NCBI RefSeq assembly: GCF_000185505.1
Contig: NZ_GL622359.1
Span: forward strand, 1,891,363 to 1,955,362
Direction of reading: 5' to 3'
DNA length: 64,000 nt
Source of the DNA: Pseudoramibacter alactolyticus ATCC 23263
Lineage (GTDB): Bacteria; Bacillota; Clostridia; Eubacteriales; Eubacteriaceae
Made by a program: the position numbers and the translations under genes. Each line of letters opens with the position of its first letter. Within the stretch, counting starts at the first letter, position 1. Below the pieces are notes generated by a model. That model did not search any database. It was not told where the DNA came from and worked only from the letters and a program-made list of their open reading frames with translations. Below are positions 8,350 to 48,657 of the stretch, in pieces.

Positions 8350-10464
8350 ATGAAAACTTATCCGACAAGCAATGTCAGAAACGTTTTGCTTTTAGGCCAT
8401 GGCGGCTCCGGGAAGACCTCACTGATCGAAGCGATGGCATTCAATGCCGGCGCCATCGACCGAATGGGCAGAATCGACGAGGGCAACACTTTATCCGACT
8501 TTGACGAAGAGGAAAAACGCAGAATGTTTTCCATTTCTTCGACGATTATTCCGGTGGAATACGGTGGTCACAAGATCAATCTGATCGACGCACCGGGCTA
8601 TTTTGACTTTGTCGGAGAAGCGGCGGCCGCCCTGCGCGCTGTTGACGCCATCATCGTCGTGGTGGATGCGCTGGCGGGGGTGCAAGTCGGCACCGAGAAA
8701 GCCATTGACATGCTCAAGCAGATTGATGTGCCGGCCTTTTTTGTCGTGAACAAGATGGACCGGGAAAACGCCAAGATCGGCAAGGTGATGGACCAATTAA
8801 AAGAAGCTTTTGGCAATAAGGTAGTGCCTTTCATTCAACCTTGGGGCGAAGGGGAAGAAATGCACGGGATTGTCAACGTGGTCGATATGAACGGCCGCGA
8901 ACGCAAGGACAACCGCTGCTTTGACGCCGAAGTGCCGGAAGATCTGAAAAATACCCTGGCGCCTTACCGTGAAATGATCATGGAAAGTGTGGCTCAGACA
9001 TCCGAAGATTTAATGGAAAAGTATTTCGACGGCGAAGAACTGACCACCGAAGAAATTCACTACGGGCTGCGCATCGGGGTGCTCGCCGGCGATCTGATTC
9101 CGGTGATGTGCACCTCGGCGGTGCAGAACATCGGGGTGGAAACCGTCGAGAACATGATTATCGACTATCTGCCCGCACCGGACGACGGAGAAGGTATGGT
9201 GGGCACGGATCCGCGGGATTCCCGGGAGATTGTCCACAAGTGTGAAGCGTCGGCGCCGTTTTCGGCTCAGATATTTAAAACCGTAGTGGATCCCTTTGTG
9301 GGCAAGCTGTCGATCTTTAAAGTGATGAGCGGCGTCCTCGAAAGCGGCGCTGAGGTGGTCAACGCCAACAAAGACACCCGCGAAAAGACGAACCATATTT
9401 ACGTGCTGCGGGGCAACAAGCAGATTGAAGTAGACAACCTGATTGCGGGGGATATCGGTGCTTTCAGCAAATTGAACGACGTCTCCACCGGGGACACCCT
9501 GTGCGACGCGGCCAATCCCATCGTGTATCCGCCGATTGATTTCCCGAAACCGGTCATTTCCATGGCGATTGAAGCCACGAACAAGAGCAATATCGACAAG
9601 CTCTCCACCGGGCTCCACAAACTCATCGAAGAAGACCCGACGATTGCTGTCACGCGCAATCCTGAAACCAAGCAGACCATTATCTCCGGTCTGGGAGAAA
9701 TGCAGCTGGAAATCGTCAGTCATCGTCTGAAACAAAAATTCGACGTGGACGTCACCCTCGAACCGATGAAGGTGCCTTACCGCGAAACCATCCGCAAATC
9801 GGCCGACGCGGAGGGCAAACACAAAAAACAATCCGGTGGCAGCGGTCAATACGGGCATGTCTTTGTGAAATTTGATCCCCTGCCGGATGTCAATGACGAT
9901 TTCCGCTTTGTGGACAAGGTGGTCGGCGGATCGGTGCCGCGCAACTTTATCCCTGCGGTCGAAAAAGGGCTGGCGGACTGCATGGCCAGCGGCGTGCTCG
10001 CCGGCTACCCGGTGACCGGGGTGCAGGCTACCCTTTACGACGGATCCTATCACGCGGTGGACTCCGACGAAATGTCTTTCAAAATGGCGGCGGCGCTGGC
10101 GTTTAAGAAGGGCCTTAAAGAAGCGGATCCGATTCTGCTCGAGCCGATTTACGGTTTGCGCATCAGCATCCCGGAAGTCTACATGGGCGATGTGATGGGC
10201 GATTTGAATAAAAAACGCGGCCGCATCCTCGGGATGGAACCGGCGGATAACGGCAGACAGATCATTACGGCGGAAGCGCCGCTTTCGGAGCTGGCCAAAT
10301 ACGCCACGGAACTGCGCTCGATGACCCAGGCCCGGGGCTCCTTTGAAATGAGCTTCGCCCGCTATGAAGAAGCGCCGGCGACGGTGGCCGAAAAAGTGAT
10401 CGCGGCGGCAAACGGCGACGATGACAAAGCGTCGAAAGACAAAGATCACAAAAAGAAAAAATAA
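8350..10464 (+). CDS. EF-G-like translation GTPase (second-type elongation factor G)
   Basis: This 704-aa GTPase has all EF-G domains. The G motifs are GHGGSGKTS (G1), DAPGYFDF (G3, where classical EF-G has DTPGHVDF) and NKMDREN (G4). Domain IV contains the GSGQYGHVF loop and the C-terminus is very lysine-rich. The altered G1 and G3 motifs place it in the FusA2-like group, which accompanies rather than replaces canonical EF-G in many Clostridia and Thermotoga. The canonical fusA should lie with rpsL-rpsG elsewhere. AAGGGGG precedes ATG 8350. It is a single-gene unit with its own promoter and terminator. The specific role of this paralogue is not settled. Confidence 0.9.
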   Translation: MKTYPTSNVRNVLLLGHGGSGKTSLIEAMAFNAGAIDRMGRIDEGNTLSDFDEEEKRRMFSISSTIIPVEYGGHKINLIDAPGYFDFVGEAAAALRAVDAIIVVVDALAGVQVGTEKAIDMLKQIDVPAFFVVNKMDRENAKIGKVMDQLKEAFGNKVVPFIQPWGEGEEMHGIVNVVDMNGRERKDNRCFDAEVPEDLKNTLAPYREMIMESVAQTSEDLMEKYFDGEELTTEEIHYGLRIGVLAGDLIPVMCTSAVQNIGVETVENMIIDYLPAPDDGEGMVGTDPRDSREIVHKCEASAPFSAQIFKTVVDPFVGKLSIFKVMSGVLESGAEVVNANKDTREKTNHIYVLRGNKQIEVDNLIAGDIGAFSKLNDVSTGDTLCDAANPIVYPPIDFPKPVISMAIEATNKSNIDKLSTGLHKLIEEDPTIAVTRNPETKQTIISGLGEMQLEIVSHRLKQKFDVDVTLEPMKVPYRETIRKSADAEGKHKKQSGGSGQYGHVFVKFDPLPDVNDDFRFVDKVVGGSVPRNFIPAVEKGLADCMASGVLAGYPVTGVQATLYDGSYHAVDSDEMSFKMAAALAFKKGLKEADPILLEPIYGLRISIPEVYMGDVMGDLNKKRGRILGMEPADNGRQIITAEAPLSELAKYATELRSMTQARGSFEMSFARYEEAPATVAEKVIAAANGDDDKASKDKDHKKKK

Positions 10465-19040: not shown

Positions 19041-20705
<1,665 letters not shown>

Positions 20706-20733: not shown

Positions 20734-20767
20734 CAGGCCGCCGCAAAACGCAGCGGCCTGTTTGCTT
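20734..20767 (+). terminator. Terminator of pyrG
   Basis: CAGGCCGC-N11-GCGGCCTG followed by TTTGCTT, 28 bp after the pyrG stop. Confidence 0.75.
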
Positions 20768-20844
20768 GCGGATGGGGCTTTACTCATTACAAAATCTGAC
20801 AGGCCAATCAGCATTTTGTCACAAGTTTGTTACAAAAAAAGGCT

Positions 20845-21124
20845 TGACACAAGATGTAGATAACCTGTGAAAATGTGGATAACTTTGGCTGCGCGGGCAA
20901 ATATCCCGGCGTAAAATCAGGCCATTTGTGGATAAAGCGTTGGATAACTGTTGAAAATGTGGATAAAATCGGTGAATATCCGAAAAATCGCTGTTTCCAA
21001 CAAAAAAACAGTTGTGCAAAAAAATGAAGGATAACCGTGTCCGAATTTGTGGATAAATGTGTATAAAGTGGAAAGAAATTTAAGTCATTTTTCAAGAAAA
21101 AGAGCTTGACACAAGATGTGGCGT
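20845..21124 (+). promoter_or_regulatory. DnaA-box cluster upstream of nadE
   Basis: The 438 bp between pyrG and nadE hold four perfect DnaA boxes (TGTGGATAA, complement of TTATCCACA) at 20874-20882, 20927-20935, 20958-20966 and 21048-21056. One-mismatch copies lie at 20855-20863 (TGTAGATAA) and 21058-21066 (TGTGTATAA), and a weaker one near 20939-20947. All point the same way. The block is bracketed by two near-identical copies of GCTTGACACAAGATGT at about 20842-20857 and 21104-21119, each carrying a TTGACA -35-like hexamer. It could be a DnaA-titrating or DnaA-responsive site, or less likely an origin. Confidence 0.85.
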
Positions 21125-21143
21125 GGATGAAACGGAGGCATAT

Positions 21144-34716: not shown

Positions 34717-35850
34717 ATGGCATTTATTGTAAGTGATGAAACAAGAGATTTAATTCAAAGCGTGCAAGTGTTTTGTGAACAAAAACTTAAACCGGTGGTT
34801 GCTGATTACGATACTAGCGGCGAATTTCCGATAAAAGTTTACAAAGACGCCATGGAAATGGGACTACATTGTCTGGAAATTCCTGAAGCATTTGGTGGAT
34901 TGGGACTCGATAACCTGTCGGCGGCAGCCATTCTTTCTAAAGTTGGCGAATATGATGCCGGATTTGCTACGGGACTAAGTGCAATCTCCCTTGCACTCAA
35001 GCCGGTATTAATTGCCGGAACGCCTGAACAAAAGCAGCTTTTTGCCGATATTGTAGTTCCCGGCAACTTTGCTGCTTTTGGATTAACGGAACCTAATGCG
35101 GGGTCGGATGCCGGGTCTGTGACGACGACAGCCGAACTGGATGGCGATCATTATGTAATTAACGGGCGTAAAACCTTTATCACCAACGGTGGTGTGGCCG
35201 ATGTGTATGTGGTTTTTGCCAGCGTGGATAAATCCAAAGGCTTGAAGGGTCTCAGCGCTTTTATTGTTGAAAAGAAAACGCCGGGGATTTCCGTCGGAAA
35301 AGAAGAAAACAAGATGGGGATTCGCCTATCGAATACGACCGATGTGGTCTTTGATAATGTGGTGATTCCGAGAGCCAATCTGCTCGGCAAGGAAGGCGAA
35401 GGCTTTAAGATTGCAATGATGACGCTTGATCTGGCCCGCCCGTTTGTGGGGGCGATTGCTTGCGGGATTGCGCAGCGGGCGATTAACGAATGTATCGCTT
35501 ATATGAAAGAGCGTGTGCAATTTGGCAAACCTATTGCGAAACTGGATGTTTTAAGAAATAAACTCGCGGATATGGAAATCAAAAAAGAAGCGGCGGTCGC
35601 AATGGTCGAACATGTGTTTAAGATGATTGACCTGGGTAAGCGCTACTCCAGGGAAGCGGCCATTGCCAAGGCATTCGCCGGAGACACCGCGGTAGAAGTG
35701 GCCATGGAAGCCATTCAAATCCACGGCGGATATGGCTACAGCCGGGAGTATCCAGTCGAAAAGCTTTTAAGAGATGCCAAGATTTTTCAGATTTTTGAAG
35801 GTACTAACGAAGTGCAGCGTGTGGTGATCGCGGGCAGCTTATTGGCATAA
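34717..35850 (+). CDS. Acyl-CoA dehydrogenase
   Basis: This 377-aa flavoprotein is of the short-chain/butyryl-CoA dehydrogenase type. FAD and substrate motifs are GLTEPNAGSDAGS, INGRKTFITNGG and QIHGGYGYSREYPVEKLLRD. The catalytic glutamate is in FEGTNEVQR at the C-terminus. GGAGG precedes ATG 34717. First gene of the operon. In Stickland-type reductive branches the enzyme reduces the 2-enoyl-CoA made by the dehydratase encoded downstream. No EtfAB genes are present in the window, so its electron partner must be encoded elsewhere. Confidence 0.95.
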   Translation: MAFIVSDETRDLIQSVQVFCEQKLKPVVADYDTSGEFPIKVYKDAMEMGLHCLEIPEAFGGLGLDNLSAAAILSKVGEYDAGFATGLSAISLALKPVLIAGTPEQKQLFADIVVPGNFAAFGLTEPNAGSDAGSVTTTAELDGDHYVINGRKTFITNGGVADVYVVFASVDKSKGLKGLSAFIVEKKTPGISVGKEENKMGIRLSNTTDVVFDNVVIPRANLLGKEGEGFKIAMMTLDLARPFVGAIACGIAQRAINECIAYMKERVQFGKPIAKLDVLRNKLADMEIKKEAAVAMVEHVFKMIDLGKRYSREAAIAKAFAGDTAVEVAMEAIQIHGGYGYSREYPVEKLLRDAKIFQIFEGTNEVQRVVIAGSLLA

Positions 35851-35888
35851 TCAGGTTCAGTCGTTTCATGGTTTCAGAGGAGGGTATG

Positions 35889-37097
35889 ATGCAAAAACGG
35901 AAATTGCTCGAAGGAATCAAAGTAATTGAATATGCAAATTTTGTCGCAGCGCCGATCAGCGGCCGTGTGTTGGCTGACTGGGGGGCCGAGGTTATTAAAA
36001 TCGAAGCGGCTTTCGGGGATACAACCCGGGCGGTTGGGATGCAGTGGAATTTCCCGACAGAGGAAGACGAATGTCCGTTGTTTGAAATGGAGAACGCTGG
36101 AAAAAAAGGGATCATCATTGATACCAGACAGCCGGAAGGTGCCCAGGTCATCTATGATTTATTGGAAGATGCCGATATCTTTTTAACGAATACTCGCCAG
36201 AAGGCGCTGGACAAAAGCGGTTTGGATTATAAAACCATTCACGAAAAATATCCGCACATTATTTATGCACATTTGCTGGGTTATGGAGATAAAGGTCCGG
36301 CCAAAGACAATCCCGCTTTTGATTATACGGCTTATTTTGCCAGAGGGGGCGTCGCGGCTAGTCTGATGGAAACCGGCACATCGCCCTGCAATTCGGCAGC
36401 GGCATTGGGTGACCACTATGCGGGAATGAACCTGGTAGCCGGTGTGCTGGCAGCCTTGCATAACAAAACCATCACCGGAGAAGGTGAAAAGGTGACGGTA
36501 TCCCTGTTCCACACAGCTGTCTTTGGTCTTGGTCTTTATGTGAATGCAGCGCAATACGGCTACAATATGCCGATTTCCCGTCGTCAGCCGCCAAATCCGC
36601 TCAATACGACTTATAAATGTGCGGATGATAAATGGCTACAGTTGGCCTTTTTCCAGTATGACAAGTGGTTCCCGGGATTTTGCGATATTGTTATTGAGCG
36701 TTCGGATCTTAAAGGGTCGAAGTACAGCACGATGAAGAGTGTGGTGAATTGCGTTGAAGAATTTGTGGGCATCATGGAGCAGGAATTCGTGAAGCACCCC
36801 ATCGACTATTGGTGCGAACGCCTGCAAAAGGCGGGAATTCCATTTGAAAAGCTCCAGACGCCGGTGGATATTATGAAGGACGAACAATGCTGGGCTAACG
36901 ATTTCCTCATCAATATCAAATATCGTAGCGGCAATGAGCGCGTGATGTTTACGAATCCGGTTCAATTTCCGGACAGAGGTACGCCGGAATATGTGCTCTC
37001 GCCGAAGCTCGGAGAACATACTGAAGAAGTGCTCAAGGAGATCGATTATTCGGACAAAAAACTGGCAGAGCTGAGAGAAAAGAAAGTGATCAATTAA
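35889..37097 (+). CDS. CaiB/BaiF-family CoA transferase (HadA/FldA-like)
   Basis: This type III CoA transferase, 402 aa, moves CoA between the acid product and the 2-hydroxy acid substrate. The N-terminal segment RVLADWGAEVIKIE, the region DECPLFEMENAGKKG and the catalytic aspartate in ALGDHYAGMNLVAG are present. From memory it resembles HadA of the leucine pathway and FldA of the aromatic pathway more than carnitine CaiB, since those also sit with dehydratase activators. I start at ATG 35889, 5 nt after GGAGG; the neighbouring ATG 35886 is too close. It lies between acyl-CoA dehydrogenase and dehydratase activator. Confidence 0.92.
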   Translation: MQKRKLLEGIKVIEYANFVAAPISGRVLADWGAEVIKIEAAFGDTTRAVGMQWNFPTEEDECPLFEMENAGKKGIIIDTRQPEGAQVIYDLLEDADIFLTNTRQKALDKSGLDYKTIHEKYPHIIYAHLLGYGDKGPAKDNPAFDYTAYFARGGVAASLMETGTSPCNSAAALGDHYAGMNLVAGVLAALHNKTITGEGEKVTVSLFHTAVFGLGLYVNAAQYGYNMPISRRQPPNPLNTTYKCADDKWLQLAFFQYDKWFPGFCDIVIERSDLKGSKYSTMKSVVNCVEEFVGIMEQEFVKHPIDYWCERLQKAGIPFEKLQTPVDIMKDEQCWANDFLINIKYRSGNERVMFTNPVQFPDRGTPEYVLSPKLGEHTEEVLKEIDYSDKKLAELREKKVIN

Positions 37098-37153
37098 AAA
37101 AAGGATGATCCGCGCAGTCAGCGCGGGCTGTGTGAATGACATCAAAGGATAAG

Positions 37154-37972
37154 ATGTTTATGACGAAGGTTTATACAATGGGCCTGGACTATGGCTCGAC
37201 AGCCTCGAAGGGCGTGATCTTGTTAAACGGCAGCAAAGTGGTTGAAAGCATTATCTATGCGTCGGGAGCCGGCACATCCGGTCCTCAAAAGGTCATTGAA
37301 GCGCTGGAGGAAAAATCCGGTATGACCATGAGTGATATGGATAAAGTCGTGGTTACGGGGTATGGGCGGATGAGCTTTAAAGCGGCGGATAAGCAGATCA
37401 GCGAGCTGAGCTGTCACGCAAAGGGTGTTCACTTTTTGGTGCCGGATGCGAGAACGGTGATCGATATCGGCGGTCAGGACGCCAAGGCTTTAAGTCTAGA
37501 TGATGACGGCCGGCTGACCAATTTTGTGATGAACGACAAATGCGCGGCTGGAACGGGACGGTTTCTGGATGTGATGTCCGGCGTTTTGGAAACAGAAGTC
37601 TCAGAGCTTGGTGCGTTGTCCGCCCAGGCTTTAAATCCGGTATCCATCAGCAGCACCTGCACGGTCTTTGCGGAATCAGAGGTCATTTCGCATTTATCCA
37701 AGGAAATACCGAAAGAAGACATTATTGCAGGCATTCACGCTTCTGTTGCGGGAAGAGTTTCCGGCCTTGTCAAACGGGTCGGCGTTCGGCAAAAGGTCGT
37801 TATGGTTGGCGGCGTCGCGAGAAATCAAGGCGTTGTGGAGGCGATGGAGGAGGCCCTGGGTGTTGACATCATCGTTCCCGAATTTTGTGCACAACTCAAC
37901 GGGGCATTGGGCGCGGCATTGTTTGCCTATGAAGAAGCAATATCATCAAATCATTATAAGGAGGGAAAGTAA
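37154..37972 (+). CDS. 2-hydroxyacyl-CoA dehydratase activator (archerase ATPase)
   Basis: This 272-aa BadF/BcrA-type ATPase is an oxygen-sensitive [4Fe-4S] homodimer that injects one electron into the dehydratase on ATP hydrolysis. The ATP-binding fold is [15 protein letters not shown] and [15 protein letters not shown]. The two cluster cysteines are in [13 protein letters not shown] and [13 protein letters not shown]-terminal [14 protein letters not shown] closes the fold. I start at ATG 37154 (AAGGA 6 nt upstream); other in-frame Mets lie at 37136 and 37160. Its stop overlaps the next start as TAATG. Confidence 0.94.
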
Positions 37973-39192
37973 TGGGAGAAGAAAAAAAAGTAACCGCTAA
38001 AAAAATGATTAACGGCATTCTTGCACAGTCTTATGCAGAAGCCTGGGAAGCAAAAGAGAAGGGGATTCCGGTCGGCTGGGCGACATCCATCTTCCCTCAG
38101 GAAATCGTCACGGCTTTTGATCTGCCGCTGTTGTATCCGGAAAACCAGGCCGCCGGGGTTGCAGCGAAAAAAGAATCGTTGAAGTTGGAAGAGGCCGCAG
38201 AAGCGAAAGGCTATTCCATTGACTTGTGCGCCTATGCCAGAACCAATTTCGGTGTGCTTATTAATGGCGGTTCGGAGAATTTGAATATGCCCAAACCGGA
38301 TTTTCTCTGCTGTTGCAACAACATCTGCAACGAAGTGGTCAAGTGGTATGAAAATATTGCTCGGGAACTGGATATTCCGTTAATTATGATTGACACGGCG
38401 TTTAACGATGAGGATGATGTCAGCGCGAGCCGGATCAAATACTTTGTCGAACAGTTTAAATATGCGATTACTCAGCTGGAAGAAATTTCTGGCAGAAAAT
38501 TTGATCCGACAAAACTTGAAAAAGTGATGGAAATTTCCTCAGAAAACGGAAAACTGTGGAAAAAATCCATGATGATGTCTACCGATGTTTATCCGGCGCC
38601 GATGAACGGCTTCGACTTGTTTACCTACATGGCTGTGATCGTGTGTTATCGCGGGAAGAAGGAAACAACAGAGGCGTTTAAGCTGTTAATCAGTGAGCTG
38701 GAAGAGCACGTTAAAAACGGTACATCGGATAACCGCGCGGAGGAAAAATACCGCATTATGATGGAAGGGATACCCTGCTGGCCCTATATCGGTTATAAAT
38801 TAAGATCCTTTAGCAAATATAAGGTCAATATGACGGGCAGTGTTTACCCTCATGCCTGGGCGCTGCAGTACGAGATGAACGATCTCGAAGGTTTGGCTAA
38901 AGCGTACTCGACCATTTTTAATAATGTCAATCTGAAAAAGATGACGGAATACCGTGTTAATGCGCTTAAGGATGGTAATTGCGAAGGGGCCTTTTACCAT
39001 ATGAATAGAAGCTGCAAGCTGATGAGTTTTATCCAGTACCAGATGGCGCGGGATGTCTATGAACAAACTGGCATTCCCTACACGGGTTTTGACGGCTGTC
39101 AGGCTGATCCACGAGTCTTTACCGAAGCACAGTTTGAAACGCGCCTTCAGGGGCTTGTTGAAGTAATGGATCAGAAAAGGGAGGGCAAATAG
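37972..39192 (+). CDS. 2-hydroxyacyl-CoA dehydratase, alpha subunit
   Basis: This 406-aa subunit of the radical dehydratase (HgdA/HadB/FldB type) removes water from (R)-2-hydroxyacyl-CoA through a ketyl radical. Cysteines for its [4Fe-4S] cluster are visible in PDFLCCCNNICNEVVKWYE and near GIPCWPYIGYKLR. IPVGWATSIFPQEIVTAFDL is typical of the N-terminal domain. GGAGGG precedes ATG 37972, which overlaps the activator stop. It is adjacent to the beta subunit with a 2-nt gap. The preferred acyl chain cannot be told from sequence here. Confidence 0.93.
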   Translation: MGEEKKVTAKKMINGILAQSYAEAWEAKEKGIPVGWATSIFPQEIVTAFDLPLLYPENQAAGVAAKKESLKLEEAAEAKGYSIDLCAYARTNFGVLINGGSENLNMPKPDFLCCCNNICNEVVKWYENIARELDIPLIMIDTAFNDEDDVSASRIKYFVEQFKYAITQLEEISGRKFDPTKLEKVMEISSENGKLWKKSMMMSTDVYPAPMNGFDLFTYMAVIVCYRGKKETTEAFKLLISELEEHVKNGTSDNRAEEKYRIMMEGIPCWPYIGYKLRSFSKYKVNMTGSVYPHAWALQYEMNDLEGLAKAYSTIFNNVNLKKMTEYRVNALKDGNCEGAFYHMNRSCKLMSFIQYQMARDVYEQTGIPYTGFDGCQADPRVFTEAQFETRLQGLVEVMDQKREGK

Positions 39193-39194
39193 AT

Positions 39195-40313
39195 ATGAAA
39201 GCATTATTAGAACGGGTTCAAACGGTTGCCGATCATCCCATTGATGCTATTAATCAATATGTTGATCAGGGCAAAAAAGCGATGGGGATGGTTTTGCCCA
39301 TCGGACCGATGGAATTAGTTGAAGCAGCCGGCATGATGCCGGTTGGCGTTTGGGGGGATTACGGCGTTACCCTTGATCTATCCAAACAATATTTTCCGGC
39401 CTTTGCAGCTTCTGTGGCAATGGTTACCATGGAATACGCCCTCAATGGTACCTATGACAAGCTCAGCGGAATGATTTGCCCGGGATTGACAGATACCTTG
39501 ATTTGCCTGGGGCAAAACTTGGAAGCTGGCGTTAAGGCTTTTCCGACTTTGTTCCTCGCCTATCCGCAGAATCGATTTTTGGAGTGCGGTCACGAATTTA
39601 TGGCTTCAGAGCTTCAAAAACTCCAGGGGCGTCTGGAAGCAATCAGCGGTCAGAAAGTGACGGAAGAAGCGTTGTCGGCGGCAATTGATTTGTACAATGA
39701 ACATCGAAGCGAAATGAGGGAATTTTCTGATCTTGCGGCAAAACACGCAAACACCATCACGAATATTGACCGTTCGAATGTTTATAAGAGCGTCTGGTAT
39801 ATGCCCAGAGCGGAACATCTTGAAATCGTGAAGGCCATTAACGAAAAACTGCGTGCCATGCCGAAAGAAACCTACGACGGCAAGAAAGTCGTGGTGACCG
39901 GACTCCAGTTTGACGACAACAATGTGCTTGGTTTTATGGAAGAAAATCATCTGCGCATTGTTGGTGATTTAGTAGGACACGACTCGGTTCAGTATAACCA
40001 AGATGTACCGGATGACAAAAGTGGCATTGAACGCCTTGCGAGATACTGGCAAAAACTCGAAGGTTTTTCAGTGGCTTATGATCCGAAGAAATTGCGTGGG
40101 AAACTTGTCGCAAAACTGGCCAAAGAAAGAGGTGCAACCGGCGCGATCTTTGCCGTGATGAAATTCTCGGATGATGAAGAATACGATATGCCGATTTGTA
40201 TGAAGGATATTAAGGCTGGTGGCATTATTGCCGTGTCTTTTGAATTTGACCAACAGGAAAGTGCTTCAGAACAAATTAAAACCAGAATCCAGACTTTTGC
40301 GGAAATCTTATAA
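39195..40313 (+). CDS. 2-hydroxyacyl-CoA dehydratase, beta subunit
   Basis: This 372-aa partner (HgdB/HadC/FldC type) carries the second cluster and helps form the active site. LPIGPMELVEAAGMMPVGVWG and SGMICPGLTDTLICLGQN carry the conserved cysteines. The C-terminal half has KVVVTGLQFDDNNVLGFMEE. Translation is probably coupled to the alpha gene just upstream. The segment MKFSDDEEYDMPICMKD has the late conserved cysteine region. Confidence 0.93.
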   Translation: MKALLERVQTVADHPIDAINQYVDQGKKAMGMVLPIGPMELVEAAGMMPVGVWGDYGVTLDLSKQYFPAFAASVAMVTMEYALNGTYDKLSGMICPGLTDTLICLGQNLEAGVKAFPTLFLAYPQNRFLECGHEFMASELQKLQGRLEAISGQKVTEEALSAAIDLYNEHRSEMREFSDLAAKHANTITNIDRSNVYKSVWYMPRAEHLEIVKAINEKLRAMPKETYDGKKVVVTGLQFDDNNVLGFMEENHLRIVGDLVGHDSVQYNQDVPDDKSGIERLARYWQKLEGFSVAYDPKKLRGKLVAKLAKERGATGAIFAVMKFSDDEEYDMPICMKDIKAGGIIAVSFEFDQQESASEQIKTRIQTFAEIL

Positions 40314-43032: not shown

Positions 43033-44028
43033 TTATCCGACAAATGAAGGGGCATACTTTGAAGCAACCTTAATTGTCTCAACCAGACTAACCTCGCTTG
43101 CTATTCCTTTCCCAGCGATATCAAAAGCAGTCCCATGATCTACTGAAGTTCGCAGAATCGGCATCCCACCTGTAATAGATACTGTTCTGTCAAAATCTAA
43201 GGTTTTTGCCGCGACATGCCCTTGATCATGATACAAAGAAAGTACACTGTCAAATCTGCCTTCCAAGGCTTGATGAAAAATAGAATCCGCACCTATCGGA
43301 CCGAAAACATTATATCCTTCTTCTTTCAATTCTTGCACAGCAGGAATAATGTCTGTTTGTTCTTCTGTCCCAAGAATTCCATGTTCACCACAATGGGGAT
43401 TTAATCCGGCCACAGCCATACTTGGATTTTCCAATCCCAACTGTTTTAAAACAGCGATACCCCTTTTAACATAATCTTTTATTCTGGATTTAGTAACCAT
43501 GTCGCATGCCTGTCTTAATGAAACATGTCGGGATAGAAAAAGGATTCGCATTCTCTGAACTTCAAAAAGAGTCAGTGGATCTTCCGTTCCCGTCAAGGCT
43601 CCAAATATTTCTGTATGACCAATATACGGAACACCGGCCAATTTAATAGCTTCTTTATTAATTGTTGTTGTCGTAACAGCATCGACTTCTCTATCCATAG
43701 CCAGTTTGATGGCTTGTTCAATATACTCATAAGCTGCTCGACCACACATTGGATTAACTTTTCCAAATGAAAATTTCTCCATATCAATATTAGAAATATT
43801 TATAACATTTAAAATATTGCCATCATCGACAGCTTCTTTTGGGTTCTCAATAATATGGAGTTTTTGAAAAGAACCGACAATTTTCATTGCATTTTCTATA
43901 ATCTGCTTGTCACCAATCGCAATGCAAATCGCACGTTCATAAACTTGTTTGTTTTTTAAGGCTTTAACACTAATTTCTGGCCCTATTCCAGCTGGGTCCC
44001 CAATAGGTATAGCAATTTTAGGTTTCAT
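43033..44028 (-). CDS. pdxA2: PdxA2-type 4-phospho-acid dehydrogenase
   Basis: This 331-aa protein of the PdxA family starts IAIPIGDPAGIGPEISVKAL. It has metal and substrate motifs GVPYIGHTEIFGALTG, GLNPHCGEHG and LYHDQGHVAAKTL, with DHGTAFDIAGKG at the end. Beside a DUF1537 kinase, PdxA proteins act as D-threonate/erythronate-4-phosphate dehydrogenases (PdxA2) rather than in vitamin B6 synthesis; that reassignment is established for such gene pairs. It would oxidise the 4-phosphorylated acid sugar, with decarboxylation to dihydroxyacetone phosphate. It lies 43 nt downstream of the kinase gene, same operon. Confidence 0.9.
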   Translation of the reverse strand: MKPKIAIPIGDPAGIGPEISVKALKNKQVYERAICIAIGDKQIIENAMKIVGSFQKLHIIENPKEAVDDGNILNVINISNIDMEKFSFGKVNPMCGRAAYEYIEQAIKLAMDREVDAVTTTTINKEAIKLAGVPYIGHTEIFGALTGTEDPLTLFEVQRMRILFLSRHVSLRQACDMVTKSRIKDYVKRGIAVLKQLGLENPSMAVAGLNPHCGEHGILGTEEQTDIIPAVQELKEEGYNVFGPIGADSIFHQALEGRFDSVLSLYHDQGHVAAKTLDFDRTVSITGGMPILRTSVDHGTAFDIAGKGIASEVSLVETIKVASKYAPSFVG

Positions 44029-44071
44029 TATTTACAAAACTCCTTTTTATAAAACAAAATTTCATTTCAAA

Positions 44072-45379
44072 TTACATATTCAACTCGGATATAAGTTTTG
44101 CAATGCATATATTAATTGCGTCCGGGCTTCCAGTCATACCACCCTTTGTAACAATGTATTTTTGAGGAAAATCGCCTCCAATCAACACACCTGCCGCTGC
44201 CAAAGGGACTGGTTCATCAATTAATTTTAAGCCAAGAAGATGCGTCACTTTGCAAAAGGCCGCTGTCATGTCGCCGCCACTTGAATATATCCCCTGTATC
44301 GCCGGGACCTTTTCTAAAATTTTATGCGCGATTGTTGCCATTGAAAAATTAATAATATCGCTTACTTCGTCAACAGTCTTTTTCATTTTTTTGGCAATAA
44401 CAGGTAAATCCAATCGATACTCTGGCTGTATGCCATCTCCCGTCACACTAAAAAGATCATAATTATCAATTTGCGCCAGAACAGTTTGTACCGCCCGATT
44501 AATTTCTGTTTCGCGTTCTTTCTCTGATTTTATTAACTGTTCTGTTTTAACATAAACGTTAAAAACCTGCTGCGCAAGCCAAAAATTTTCCATCTGCGTT
44601 TTAGCAACAGGATTTACGCTCCCTTGGATTAATAAAATTTTATTTTTATATCTTTTTTTTTCAGAAACAATTAGTTTAGAAGCTAAGGTTGCTGTAAAGG
44701 CCCCAGGATCCACGGCAATAAAATGAATGTTACTTGCTATTACTGCCTCACTAATCATATTGATATCTTCTTGAGTTATCGCATCAAAAATTATAATACG
44801 ATTTCCTTCATGTACTAATAATTTTATTTCATTTGAAAGCCATTCTTTTCCTCTATCAATATCCCGGATCATAATTGATGCAACAGGATACTTTGTTTGC
44901 TGTTCAAATAATTTTTTGACTCTTGAATCTTGAACAGGTGTCTTTGGATCTAATGCAGCCTCAGTTTTGTGTAAGATCACACCATCAACCGTTAAATAGC
45001 CACCAATAGACACACGCCCCGACGCTGGTGCACATGGAACAACGATAGCCGTGTAATCTTCCCCCATCGCATCGAGCATTGCATCTGTTTCAGCGCCCAA
45101 ATTTCCTCTTAACGTGCTATCAATTCTCTTATTTAAAAGTGACAAAGATTTATTTTTAAACATCTTTGTGAGACGAAATACTTTTTTATAGGCTTCATCT
45201 TGATTAATACAACGGCTATCCGTTGTAAATGTTACACAATCACTTTCATTAATCTCAGCGCTTTCTTCATCATCAGGGCAATTTAAAATTGTTGATGTCG
45301 AATAGCCTTGCTCTCGTAATAAAACACCAGTGGCATTCGCCCCTGTTAAATCATCTGCTATTACCACACACTTAAGCAT
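44072..45379 (-). CDS. Four-carbon acid-sugar kinase (DUF1537 family)
   Basis: This 435-aa kinase has the N-terminal substrate domain VVIADDLTGANATGVLLREQ, the second motif CVTFTTDSRCIN and the HRIDSTLRGN-type segment NKRIDSTLRGNLGAETDAML. Its nucleotide half has YSSGGDMTAAFCK and VTKGGMTGSPDAIN. Characterised members phosphorylate D-threonate, D-erythronate, 3-oxo-tetronates or 3-oxo-isoapionate at O4. The pairing with PdxA2 points to D-threonate/D-erythronate; the nearby RuBisCO-like gene points to a 3-oxo-acid variant. ATG 45379 has GGGGGG as ribosome site about 9 nt upstream. Confidence 0.9.
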   Translation of the reverse strand: MLKCVVIADDLTGANATGVLLREQGYSTSTILNCPDDEESAEINESDCVTFTTDSRCINQDEAYKKVFRLTKMFKNKSLSLLNKRIDSTLRGNLGAETDAMLDAMGEDYTAIVVPCAPASGRVSIGGYLTVDGVILHKTEAALDPKTPVQDSRVKKLFEQQTKYPVASIMIRDIDRGKEWLSNEIKLLVHEGNRIIIFDAITQEDINMISEAVIASNIHFIAVDPGAFTATLASKLIVSEKKRYKNKILLIQGSVNPVAKTQMENFWLAQQVFNVYVKTEQLIKSEKERETEINRAVQTVLAQIDNYDLFSVTGDGIQPEYRLDLPVIAKKMKKTVDEVSDIINFSMATIAHKILEKVPAIQGIYSSGGDMTAAFCKVTHLLGLKLIDEPVPLAAAGVLIGGDFPQKYIVTKGGMTGSPDAINICIAKLISELNM

Positions 45380-45518
45380 AATTATCCCCCCTTGAATACA
45401 AAAATATTCAAATCAAATTTCCCCTGATTCGAGCAAATTTCTACTCTTATAATGAATGAAAAACGTTTTATTTTCTAGTGTGAAAATATTTTTGCTCTTA
45501 AAATTAAAAAATAATTGT

Positions 45519-45660
45519 TTTACAATATGTTTGTAAACGTAGTTCTTTGCTGAGAAAGGAGGAGGAATTTCATCATGTTTTTCATATTATCACGATTTTA
45601 AAGTTGCAAAGGAGGGAGTGTAGTTTATATTTGTGAAGATTTGATTTTGAGAAAGGAGGA
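45519..45660. promoter_or_regulatory. Divergent control region of the acid-sugar island
   Basis: An inverted repeat TTTACA-N7-TGTAAA lies at 45519-45537 and could be an operator. Three strong ribosome sites follow on the + strand: AAAGGAGGAGG before a seven-codon ORF MFFILSRF-stop (ATG near 45575), AAAGGAGGGAG near 45608 with no long frame, and AAAGGAGGA before the membrane-protein gene. The region suggests translated leaders or vestiges of lost small genes. Confidence 0.5.
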
Positions 45661-45665
45661 AATAT

Positions 45666-46490
45666 GTGAGTGTTTTTATGATTGGCTGCGCATTTTGCGC
45701 AGGCGTCATTGGTGCCCTAGTTGGTGCTTTTGAAGAATGCATGCTTGCCGGATTTTTGGCATTAGTGGTGTGTATGTTTCCAGGAAACAAACTAATGGCA
45801 AATTGTTTATCTTACGGCTTCATTCCATTCGTAGCATTTACTGGTGCCGTTGCGGGAACAGCGTATGCTTCTAAAATTAGGAAACATGATCTTGGAGGTG
45901 CCGAAATTCTTAAAAGTTTAAACACTTTTAATGACATTTCTGCTTTGATCATTTCTGGTTTATTCGCCATTGTTGGGGTCGTGTTAACTTACCTTATTGG
46001 ATTGCTTCAACAACCAATTGATGCGGGAGCACTAAATGTTATTGTTGTTTCCGTGATTGTTCGAATTATTTTTGGAGATGGGAAATTCTGGAATTCTAAA
46101 ATTCACGATATCCCACGCTATACAACCAAAAAATTTGAATGGTTCTATATCGCTTTTGTTGGCGCCGTTATTGGTTTTGCGGCTGCATGGTTAGGAAAAG
46201 CTACGGGAAATGTCTGGTTGCCCTTCTATCTAAGTCTTGCCTCATTGTTGTTCTATTTCATCGAACCAAATTTCCCACCAACCCATCATATTACTTGCAT
46301 TGCAGCATATGCATTAATGGCAACAAACAATACAATTGTGGGAGCTGTATGGGGCGCAATTGCAGCCATTGTAATGACTTTAATTGGCGATGCGATCAAT
46401 ACAGATGTCAGTACACATATTGATCCACCAGCCACGGCCATTGGTGTTTTAAGCGTCGTAATATGGATAATTTATTATATTATCCTCTAA
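45666..46490 (+). CDS. Polytopic membrane protein, probable transporter
   Basis: This 274-aa, very hydrophobic protein has about eight helices. It begins with a GTG start (45666, GGAGG 6 nt upstream) and a Cys/Gly/Ala-rich first helix (MIGCAFCAGVIGALVGAFEE). A charged loop KIRKHDLGGAEILKSLN and the Pro-rich NFPPTHHITCIAAYAL are notable. I do not recognise the family with certainty. Its position at the head of the + strand half of the acid-sugar island makes substrate uptake the natural guess. Transporters of known acid-sugar loci (TRAP, GntP, ABC) look different. Confidence 0.65.
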   Translation: MSVFMIGCAFCAGVIGALVGAFEECMLAGFLALVVCMFPGNKLMANCLSYGFIPFVAFTGAVAGTAYASKIRKHDLGGAEILKSLNTFNDISALIISGLFAIVGVVLTYLIGLLQQPIDAGALNVIVVSVIVRIIFGDGKFWNSKIHDIPRYTTKKFEWFYIAFVGAVIGFAAAWLGKATGNVWLPFYLSLASLLFYFIEPNFPPTHHITCIAAYALMATNNTIVGAVWGAIAAIVMTLIGDAINTDVSTHIDPPATAIGVLSVVIWIIYYIIL

Positions 46491-46538
46491 ATTTAAAATC
46501 TATTTTTAGTATTAATGAACCCTTGAAAGGAAAAAGCC

Positions 46539-47186
46539 ATGAAAATTATTGATATGACACAAGATATTTATCCGGATTGCCCAGGTTGGTATGCCTACGA
46601 AAACGCTGAACTTGGTCACGAAACATTTGTAGGTAAGGAAGGCTACACGTCAGAACGACTCAATATCAACACACACACAGCAACACATTTAGATGCTCCG
46701 TTCCACAATTACGCAGATATGGATACAATTGATGCCATGCCTATTGATCAATTCATTGGTGAAGCCGTCGTAATCGATAAACGAGGAGTTGAAGATAACT
46801 ATGAAGTCACCATCGATGATCTTAAGCCTTACGAAAGCTTAATCAAAAAAGATTCAATTGTTCTAATTAATACTGGTTGGACGAAACATAGAGGTTATGG
46901 CGAAGATTACATGAAAGCATGGCCTTATTTATCAGGAGAAGGTGCAAAATGGTTGCGTGAAAAAGGCGTTAAGGGTGTCGGCATTGATGGGATGAGTATT
47001 GGCTCCTATGAAAACGGCAAACCGGCTCATTCACAATTGTTACCCTATAATATCTTTGTTTTAGAAGAATGTGCATTCCCGGATGAAATAATGCGATATA
47101 AAACATTCAAATTTTACGCGGTTCCTCTGAAACTCCGTGGGGCAGGCGGATCTCCGACCAGAGCTTTTGCTATTGTAGATGATTAA
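46539..47186 (+). CDS. Cyclase-family (kynurenine formamidase-like) hydrolase
   Basis: This 215-aa protein of the Cyclase superfamily has the metal signature H-x-G-T-H-x-D-x-P-x-H, here INTHTATHLDAPFHNYADM (Thr-Ala in place of Gly-Thr before the second His). Further conserved segments are VLINTGWTKH and VKGVGIDGMSIGSYENGK. Family members hydrolyse amides, lactones and similar bonds, using manganese or zinc. In this operon it may open a lactone of the acid sugar or hydrolyse a dehydrated intermediate. AAAGGA precedes ATG 46539. Confidence 0.88.
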   Translation: MKIIDMTQDIYPDCPGWYAYENAELGHETFVGKEGYTSERLNINTHTATHLDAPFHNYADMDTIDAMPIDQFIGEAVVIDKRGVEDNYEVTIDDLKPYESLIKKDSIVLINTGWTKHRGYGEDYMKAWPYLSGEGAKWLREKGVKGVGIDGMSIGSYENGKPAHSQLLPYNIFVLEECAFPDEIMRYKTFKFYAVPLKLRGAGGSPTRAFAIVDD

Positions 47187-47310
47187 TACTTTCTAAGATT
47201 GTAAAAATAATAGGAAAATATTTTCAATCTAGAAAATATATTTTTAACACTCTATAATATTCATATAAACGAAACAGAATTACATCTGTTCCAACAGGGA
47301 GGAAGATAAA

Positions 47311-48657
47311 ATGATTCAGCAAAACAGAATGTATGGAACGTTATTAAATCCACTTTATGAAGGGTGCGACTTAGACGATCTTTGTATCGCGACCTATTTG
47401 ATCGCCTGTCACCGCGATGAAGATGTCGTCGTCAAAATGAACAGCATCGGAATTGAACAAACAACCGGATCTTGGGTTGATGTTCCGGCTGAAACAGATG
47501 AAGTTCGCACAAAATATGCTTCAAAAGTTATTGGAATTTATGAGATCCCCGCTTATGAAAACAGAACCGATCTTGTTAATGCGGTTGGCCCGGACGGTTA
47601 TCGTTGGTTCATTGTTCGCATTGGCTTCCCGGTAGCCAACATTGAAGATAACATCCCGTTGCTCATCGGCAGCATCAGTGGGAACATCATGTCTATGCCG
47701 AATTTGAAGCTTTTAGATATTGACTTTCCCAAAAAATTTGTCGACAAATTCCAAGGACCTAAATTTGGTCTTAACGGTATTCGTAAAATCTTAAATGTTT
47801 ACGATCGCCCCTTACTTAACAACATGATCAAACCTTGCACAGGCTATACCCCTGAAGTCGGTGAAAAACTTTTTTATGAAGCTGCAGCGGGCGGCGTCGA
47901 CATTATCAAAGACGACGAATTGATCGGTGGCGATCGCTCATTCAACAAATTAGCGGATCGCGTTAAATTAAATATGGATGCAGCTCATCGTGCAGAAGAT
48001 ATTAAGCAGGAAAAAACACTTTATGCTTGCAATATCACCGACGAAGTTTCGCGCTTGAAAGCCAATGCTATGACCGTCATTGAAAATGGGGGTAACTGCA
48101 TTATGGTTGATGTCCACGGAGTCGGTTATACTGCTGTTAGAATGTTGGCGGAAGATCCGGATATCACTGTGCCGATTTTGGGTCATAGTTGCTTCAATGG
48201 CGCTTTCACTTCTTCACCTTATCAAGGTATGAGTTCCAAAGTCGTCACGAAACTTTGCCGTATTGCCGGCTGCGATATCTATCTGACTCAGCCGCCTTAC
48301 GGGAAGTTCGACAATACTTTCGATAACTATATCGAAAACATGATCACGGCCAAAGCAAAAATGTATGACCTCAAGCCCATGCTGCCCTTTGTTGGCGGCG
48401 GCGTGGTTCCGGGTCTTATTCCGAAATTTATGTCTGACGCCGGCAACGATATTCTCCTCGGCGCTGGCGCTGGCATCCACGCGCATCCGATGGGCCCCCA
48501 AGCCGGAGCGAGAGCATTCCGTGAAACAATTGATGCGTGCATGAATGATGTGCTTTTGAGAGAAGCGGCTGAAAAAGGCTCCGAAGAATTGAAGGTGGCT
48601 ATTGAAAAATGGGGAATCTACGGCGACGATCATAGTAAAGACTTATACGCTCTGTAA
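47311..48657 (+). CDS. RuBisCO-like protein (form IV-type large chain)
   Basis: This 448-aa protein has the RuBisCO large-chain fold. The carbamylation site is kept as GGVDIIKDDELIG (Lys200, Asp202, Glu203, equivalent to 201/203/204). The catalytic lysine of TIKPKLG appears as MIKPCTGY (Lys174 kept, the second Lys is Cys). A loop-6 lysine may be Lys332 in PPYGKFDN, where carboxylases have GKLEG. The phosphate-binding GG and GHPWG regions are VGGGVVPG and IHAHPMGPQAG. It is therefore not a CO2-fixing enzyme, but likely an active lyase or isomerase. GGGAGGAAG precedes ATG 47311. In its operon it may act on a 3-oxo-acid phosphate. Confidence 0.9.
   Translation: MIQQNRMYGTLLNPLYEGCDLDDLCIATYLIACHRDEDVVVKMNSIGIEQTTGSWVDVPAETDEVRTKYASKVIGIYEIPAYENRTDLVNAVGPDGYRWFIVRIGFPVANIEDNIPLLIGSISGNIMSMPNLKLLDIDFPKKFVDKFQGPKFGLNGIRKILNVYDRPLLNNMIKPCTGYTPEVGEKLFYEAAAGGVDIIKDDELIGGDRSFNKLADRVKLNMDAAHRAEDIKQEKTLYACNITDEVSRLKANAMTVIENGGNCIMVDVHGVGYTAVRMLAEDPDITVPILGHSCFNGAFTSSPYQGMSSKVVTKLCRIAGCDIYLTQPPYGKFDNTFDNYIENMITAKAKMYDLKPMLPFVGGGVVPGLIPKFMSDAGNDILLGAGAGIHAHPMGPQAGARAFRETIDACMNDVLLREAAEKGSEELKVAIEKWGIYGDDHSKDLYAL

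Follow-up and report, generated by a model that had tools for sequence, protein, structure and literature searches.

This study focused on an array of DnaA boxes lying between pyrG and nadE, a new locus of a known type, the off-origin DnaA-box cluster. From its sequence features, and by analogy with B. subtilis, we lean towards reading it as a chromosomal, off-origin DnaA-binding array that would act as a reservoir like the clusters of that species, and that may also affect the nadE promoter. In broader terms, its sequence suggests that the array probably holds spare DnaA, couples the NAD gene to the replication cycle, or does both.

Composition of the array

The window, the whole 64-kb stretch of DNA that was analysed (C1:1891363-1955362), is part of contig C1, which was read in stretches (2.33 Mb with 1.5% N, of an assembly of 2.36 Mb). 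The AT-rich (62%) intergenic region between pyrG and nadE holds six DnaA boxes within 212 bp, four of them perfect and two with one mismatch, each on the + strand. The original prediction had described four perfect and at least two one-mismatch boxes in about 210 bp, in one orientation and flanked by two copies of a repeat, and this description was confirmed. It had also pointed out that neither dnaA nor dnaN is nearby, which is true for the window, the dnaA of this genome being 151 kb off. The features of the locus are as follows.

19101..20705, + strand: pyrG (CTP synthase), upstream neighbour of the array
20740..20757, + strand: terminator-like hairpin 3' of pyrG, a weak consensus match at about shuffle level
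20842..20857, + strand: upstream flanking repeat GCTTGACACAAGATGT, with a consensus of roughly ACACAAGATATAG in the family, kept at the upstream edge of the array
20855..21066, + strand: DnaA-box array, all six boxes in the same orientation, positions kept in relatives
20855-20863, + strand: box TGTAGATAA, one mismatch
20874-20882, + strand: box TGTGGATAA, perfect
20927-20935, + strand: box TGTGGATAA, perfect
20958-20966, + strand: box TGTGGATAA, perfect
21048-21056, + strand: box TGTGGATAA, perfect
21058-21066, + strand: box TGTGTATAA, one mismatch
21104..21119, + strand: downstream flanking repeat GCTTGACACAAGATGT, second copy
21134-21138, + strand: nadE Shine-Dalgarno sequence, GGAGG
21144 (ATG)..23069 (stop), + strand: nadE, glutamine-dependent NAD+ synthase, the gene downstream of the array

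Sites with at most one mismatch number 26 in the window (shuffle mean 11.3, maximum 20), and six of these belong to the array. Contig C1 carries 37 perfect sites and 617 with at most one mismatch. When boxes were counted per 300 bp across the contig, six or more were found at only three places in the genome: oriC, the nadE array, and a second array at a trmN6-like gene. Random placement of the 617 sites, repeated 2000 times, reached six in 300 bp 0 times.

Several other features of the sequence were recorded. A fifth perfect box occurs in the window at 19796-19804, within pyrG, and has counterparts at the matching position in G028 and G029, a recurrence that probably stems from conserved codons. 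Perfect TGTGGATAA sites are biased to the leading strand (25:12 in the genome of the window, with the bias visible in G025 too), and the motif is commoner than a reversed control pattern in the genomes searched. Elsewhere in the window, positions 34717-40313 specify an acyl-CoA dehydrogenase (acryloyl-CoA reductase-like), a CoA-transferase, a dehydratase activase and two 2-hydroxyacyl-CoA dehydratase subunits, and represent an amino-acid-type reductive fermentation cluster. An AT-rich region at 43033-48657, with a PdxA-like dehydrogenase, a two-domain sugar-acid kinase-like protein and a RuBisCO-large-chain-like protein, is possibly a four-carbon acid sugar pathway.

Conservation of the boxes and flanking repeats

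A search of 40 family genomes for nadE yielded 30 loci with an upstream region; in every one of these pyrG lies upstream and the spacer holds three boxes or more. With five further genomes (G011, G039, G030, G021 and G022) the readable set comes to 35, and the array is present in 33 of them, spanning seven genera and including G011, G039 and G030. It is absent in G021 and G022, both of the reduced genus g3. Every family locus with the array has pyrG upstream. Among the genera, g2 is most likely Acetobacterium, while g4 is probably Eubacterium and g1 probably Pseudoramibacter. The suggestion that the same cluster be sought before nadE in relatives was thus borne out across the family. Outside it, neither the 37 nadE loci of other bacteria nor those examined in other families of the same order showed an array, and in both sets pyrG does not adjoin nadE.

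In an alignment of the spacers, pairwise identity was 85% in box columns vs 46% in other columns, and the box-column value exceeded those of all 394 circular shifts of the columns. Such conservation indicates that selection has maintained the closely packed, one-orientation boxes at the pyrG-nadE junction throughout the family. An insertion in G024 moves the array about 300 bp further away from nadE. This insertion is ~300 bp long, consists of two direct repeats that are 88% identical, and lies 3' of the promoter within the nadE leader (L253, about 8763-9035). Helical phasing near 10.5 bp was seen in several arrays of relatives but was set aside as support, since these arrays are homologous rather than independent and that of the window has no such phasing.

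The flanks are a constant part of the locus. The repeat TTGACACAAGATGT is nearly unique to it, conserved in the family and NrdR-box-like. The flank motif ACACAAGATRT is present at three positions of contig C1, two of them at the nadE array, and of 24 exact matches to ACACAARATRTAG in the family, 12 are located at pyrG-nadE. In other genera a related or inverted form is found near the nadE promoter. An NrdR operator, located at ribonucleotide reductase genes, consists of a pair of 16-bp boxes with a spacer of 14-17 or 24-27 bp (PMC12051234), and the two flanking copies lie at a distance of 262 bp. The genome of the window has one similar site before nrdD, but none of the other occurrences examined in the family is at an nrd gene. 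Given the wrong spacing and the want of a consistent nrd link, an NrdR operator was rejected despite the core-like similarity.

Genomic position and a second array

The cumulative GC skew of contig C1 has its minimum at 1,763,582 and its maximum at 560,112. The minimum adjoins a standard rpmH-dnaA-dnaN origin, with dnaA, dnaN and a bipartite oriC all located away from the pyrG-nadE array, which lies on the right arm, 151 kb from dnaA, and has neither the skew minimum nor linkage to dnaA and dnaN. The array is therefore not oriC. The original prediction had argued against a bidirectional origin here and proposed the skew of the whole chromosome as a check; the outcome agrees with it. In a look for an AT-rich unwinding element beside the boxes, the most AT-rich 50-bp stretch reached 0.78 at the nadE array vs 0.88 in the dnaA-dnaN spacer. 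Across eight genomes the array lies 151-677 kb from dnaA, on either arm, at 13-34% of the half-chromosome, an origin-proximal location like that of the B. subtilis type, although a constant distance from oriC is also expected from symmetric inversions.

The second off-origin array (C1:1636564-1636764; L100:16564-16764) is on the left arm, 125 kb from oriC on the other side. Its boxes are of mixed orientation and lie upstream of a methyltransferase gene that can be called trmN6-like, the NCBIfam TrmN match being below the curated cut-off. Most family genomes have this array, and a box often overlaps the start codon of trmN6. It is absent in G036, G030 and G039, which represent three genera and retain the nadE array, and G037 has just one box of it. 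A strict rule of symmetry, with the two arrays on opposite arms, was considered and dropped: they are opposite in seven of eight genomes and on the same arm in G024, and inversions explain the pattern. A fourth, weaker group of four boxes was seen at C1:2069966-2070082 (L187:9966-10082), after a ROK-type sugar kinase-like ORF and 308 kb from dnaA.

Possible functions of the array

Off-origin DnaA-box clusters in B. subtilis are said to have been described by Ishikawa in 2007 and Okumura in 2012. Like them, the nadE array is an intergenic group of boxes outside oriC, beside a promoter; several of the B. subtilis clusters lie in the origin half of the chromosome, and several double as DnaA-regulated promoters. 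Unlike them, its boxes all share one orientation and are flanked by two repeats. Affinities have been determined for the B. subtilis clusters, several of which also regulate transcription (PMC4447404). None of those listed there (ywcI/vpr, gcp/ydiF, trmE/jag, ywlC, yqeG/sda and yydA) is at pyrG, nadE or trmN6, so with no shared position the nadE array is a functional analogue and not an orthologue. Literature titles and abstracts gave no relevant link of DnaA boxes to nadE, none for DnaA boxes with Eubacterium limosum, and for Acetobacterium with DnaA boxes a single paper, which deals with another genus.

As a reservoir, the array would be loaded cooperatively by DnaA, the encoded protein being a standard DnaA (NCBIfam TIGR00362, E 2e-166). 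Replicated soon after initiation, it would double early, and the doubled array could take up free DnaA and so keep oriC from refiring immediately, in the way proposed for the B. subtilis clusters. DnaA bound beside the nadE promoter may also alter nadE transcription. This model draws on the B. subtilis precedent and on the conservation of two arrays that adjoin unrelated genes and, in most genomes, both lie near the origin. It is consistent with boxes being packed most densely, in the genome of the window, at oriC and these two arrays, and a conserved array at an unrelated gene fits a gene-independent role. Deletion of six off-origin clusters in B. subtilis leads to early initiation (PMC5295017, PMC13220808), but the clusters were also judged to have no major role in initiation control (PMC5295017). 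One reduced genus also lives without the array. Since the array is always close to nadE, and the trmN6 array is missing in three genera that retain the nadE array, there is room for a nadE-specific role.

Such a role is a credible though tentative alternative: the array would be the control region of nadE, with DnaA turning NAD synthesis up or down in step with the replication cycle and any effect on initiation being secondary. In Acetobacterium- and Eubacterium-like genera the last box is closely followed by a conserved TTGnnn-N17-TATAAT promoter, and a box adjoins its -35 element in genus g4. The spacing to nadE is kept in most genomes, the G024 insertion left the array-promoter unit intact, and in the loci read the array never occurs without an adjoining nadE, although intergenic elements are inherited with their neighbours anyway. 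The spacer of the window itself, scanned for a sigma-70 promoter, gave no good match; ~200 bp with six or seven boxes exceeds what a promoter needs; and the equally dense second array is at a gene of unrelated function. In E. coli, DnaA binds upstream of nucleotide-synthesis genes, and regulation of nrdA, nrdD and purH depends on two boxes separated by 2-3 bp (PMC11317965). The nadE array resembles these promoters in having DnaA sites upstream of a nucleotide-metabolism gene, but it is long, and its target would be NAD synthetase. By analogy with the B. subtilis clusters, which can do both, the reservoir and promoter models are compatible. The original prediction had favoured a titration site or a DnaA-controlled nadE promoter over an origin; its rejection of an origin stands, and there is evidence for each of the other two. 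A more elaborate version, in which DnaA on the array and a second factor at the NrdR-box-like flanks gate nadE, with NAD supply following initiation, seems unlikely.

The E. coli loci datA, DARS1 and DARS2 are likewise off-origin DnaA-box sites that influence initiation. The nadE array has different neighbours and belongs to a different phylum. datA has five boxes, and datA and DARS work by switching the nucleotide state of DnaA in an IHF- or Fis-dependent manner. That the array switches DnaA activity in this way is improbable: the boxes are clustered with conserved spacing, and the phasing in several relatives suggests an ordered complex, but no partner site for IHF or Fis was identified at the array, and B. 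subtilis is not known to have a regulator that acts on the nucleotide state of its DnaA (PMC5295017). Dense boxes in an AT-rich intergenic region might also mark a second or ancestral origin, which we regard as highly improbable, since the skew turns at dnaA and near 560 kb with no change at the array, oriC is elsewhere, and all boxes share one orientation. A chance cluster or low-complexity artefact of an AT-rich region can be dismissed in view of the shuffles, the random placements and the family-wide conservation of the boxes.

To our knowledge, few bacteria have been found to tune initiation through DnaA sites outside the origin. The two arrays described here can be traced through a family of anaerobes that includes Acetobacterium, and the natural losses of each make their role directly testable. 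Should nadE also be driven by its array, NAD supply would be tied to the replication initiator, and gating of nadE by DnaA and a second factor at the flanks, if true, would be a previously undescribed control circuit shared across the family.
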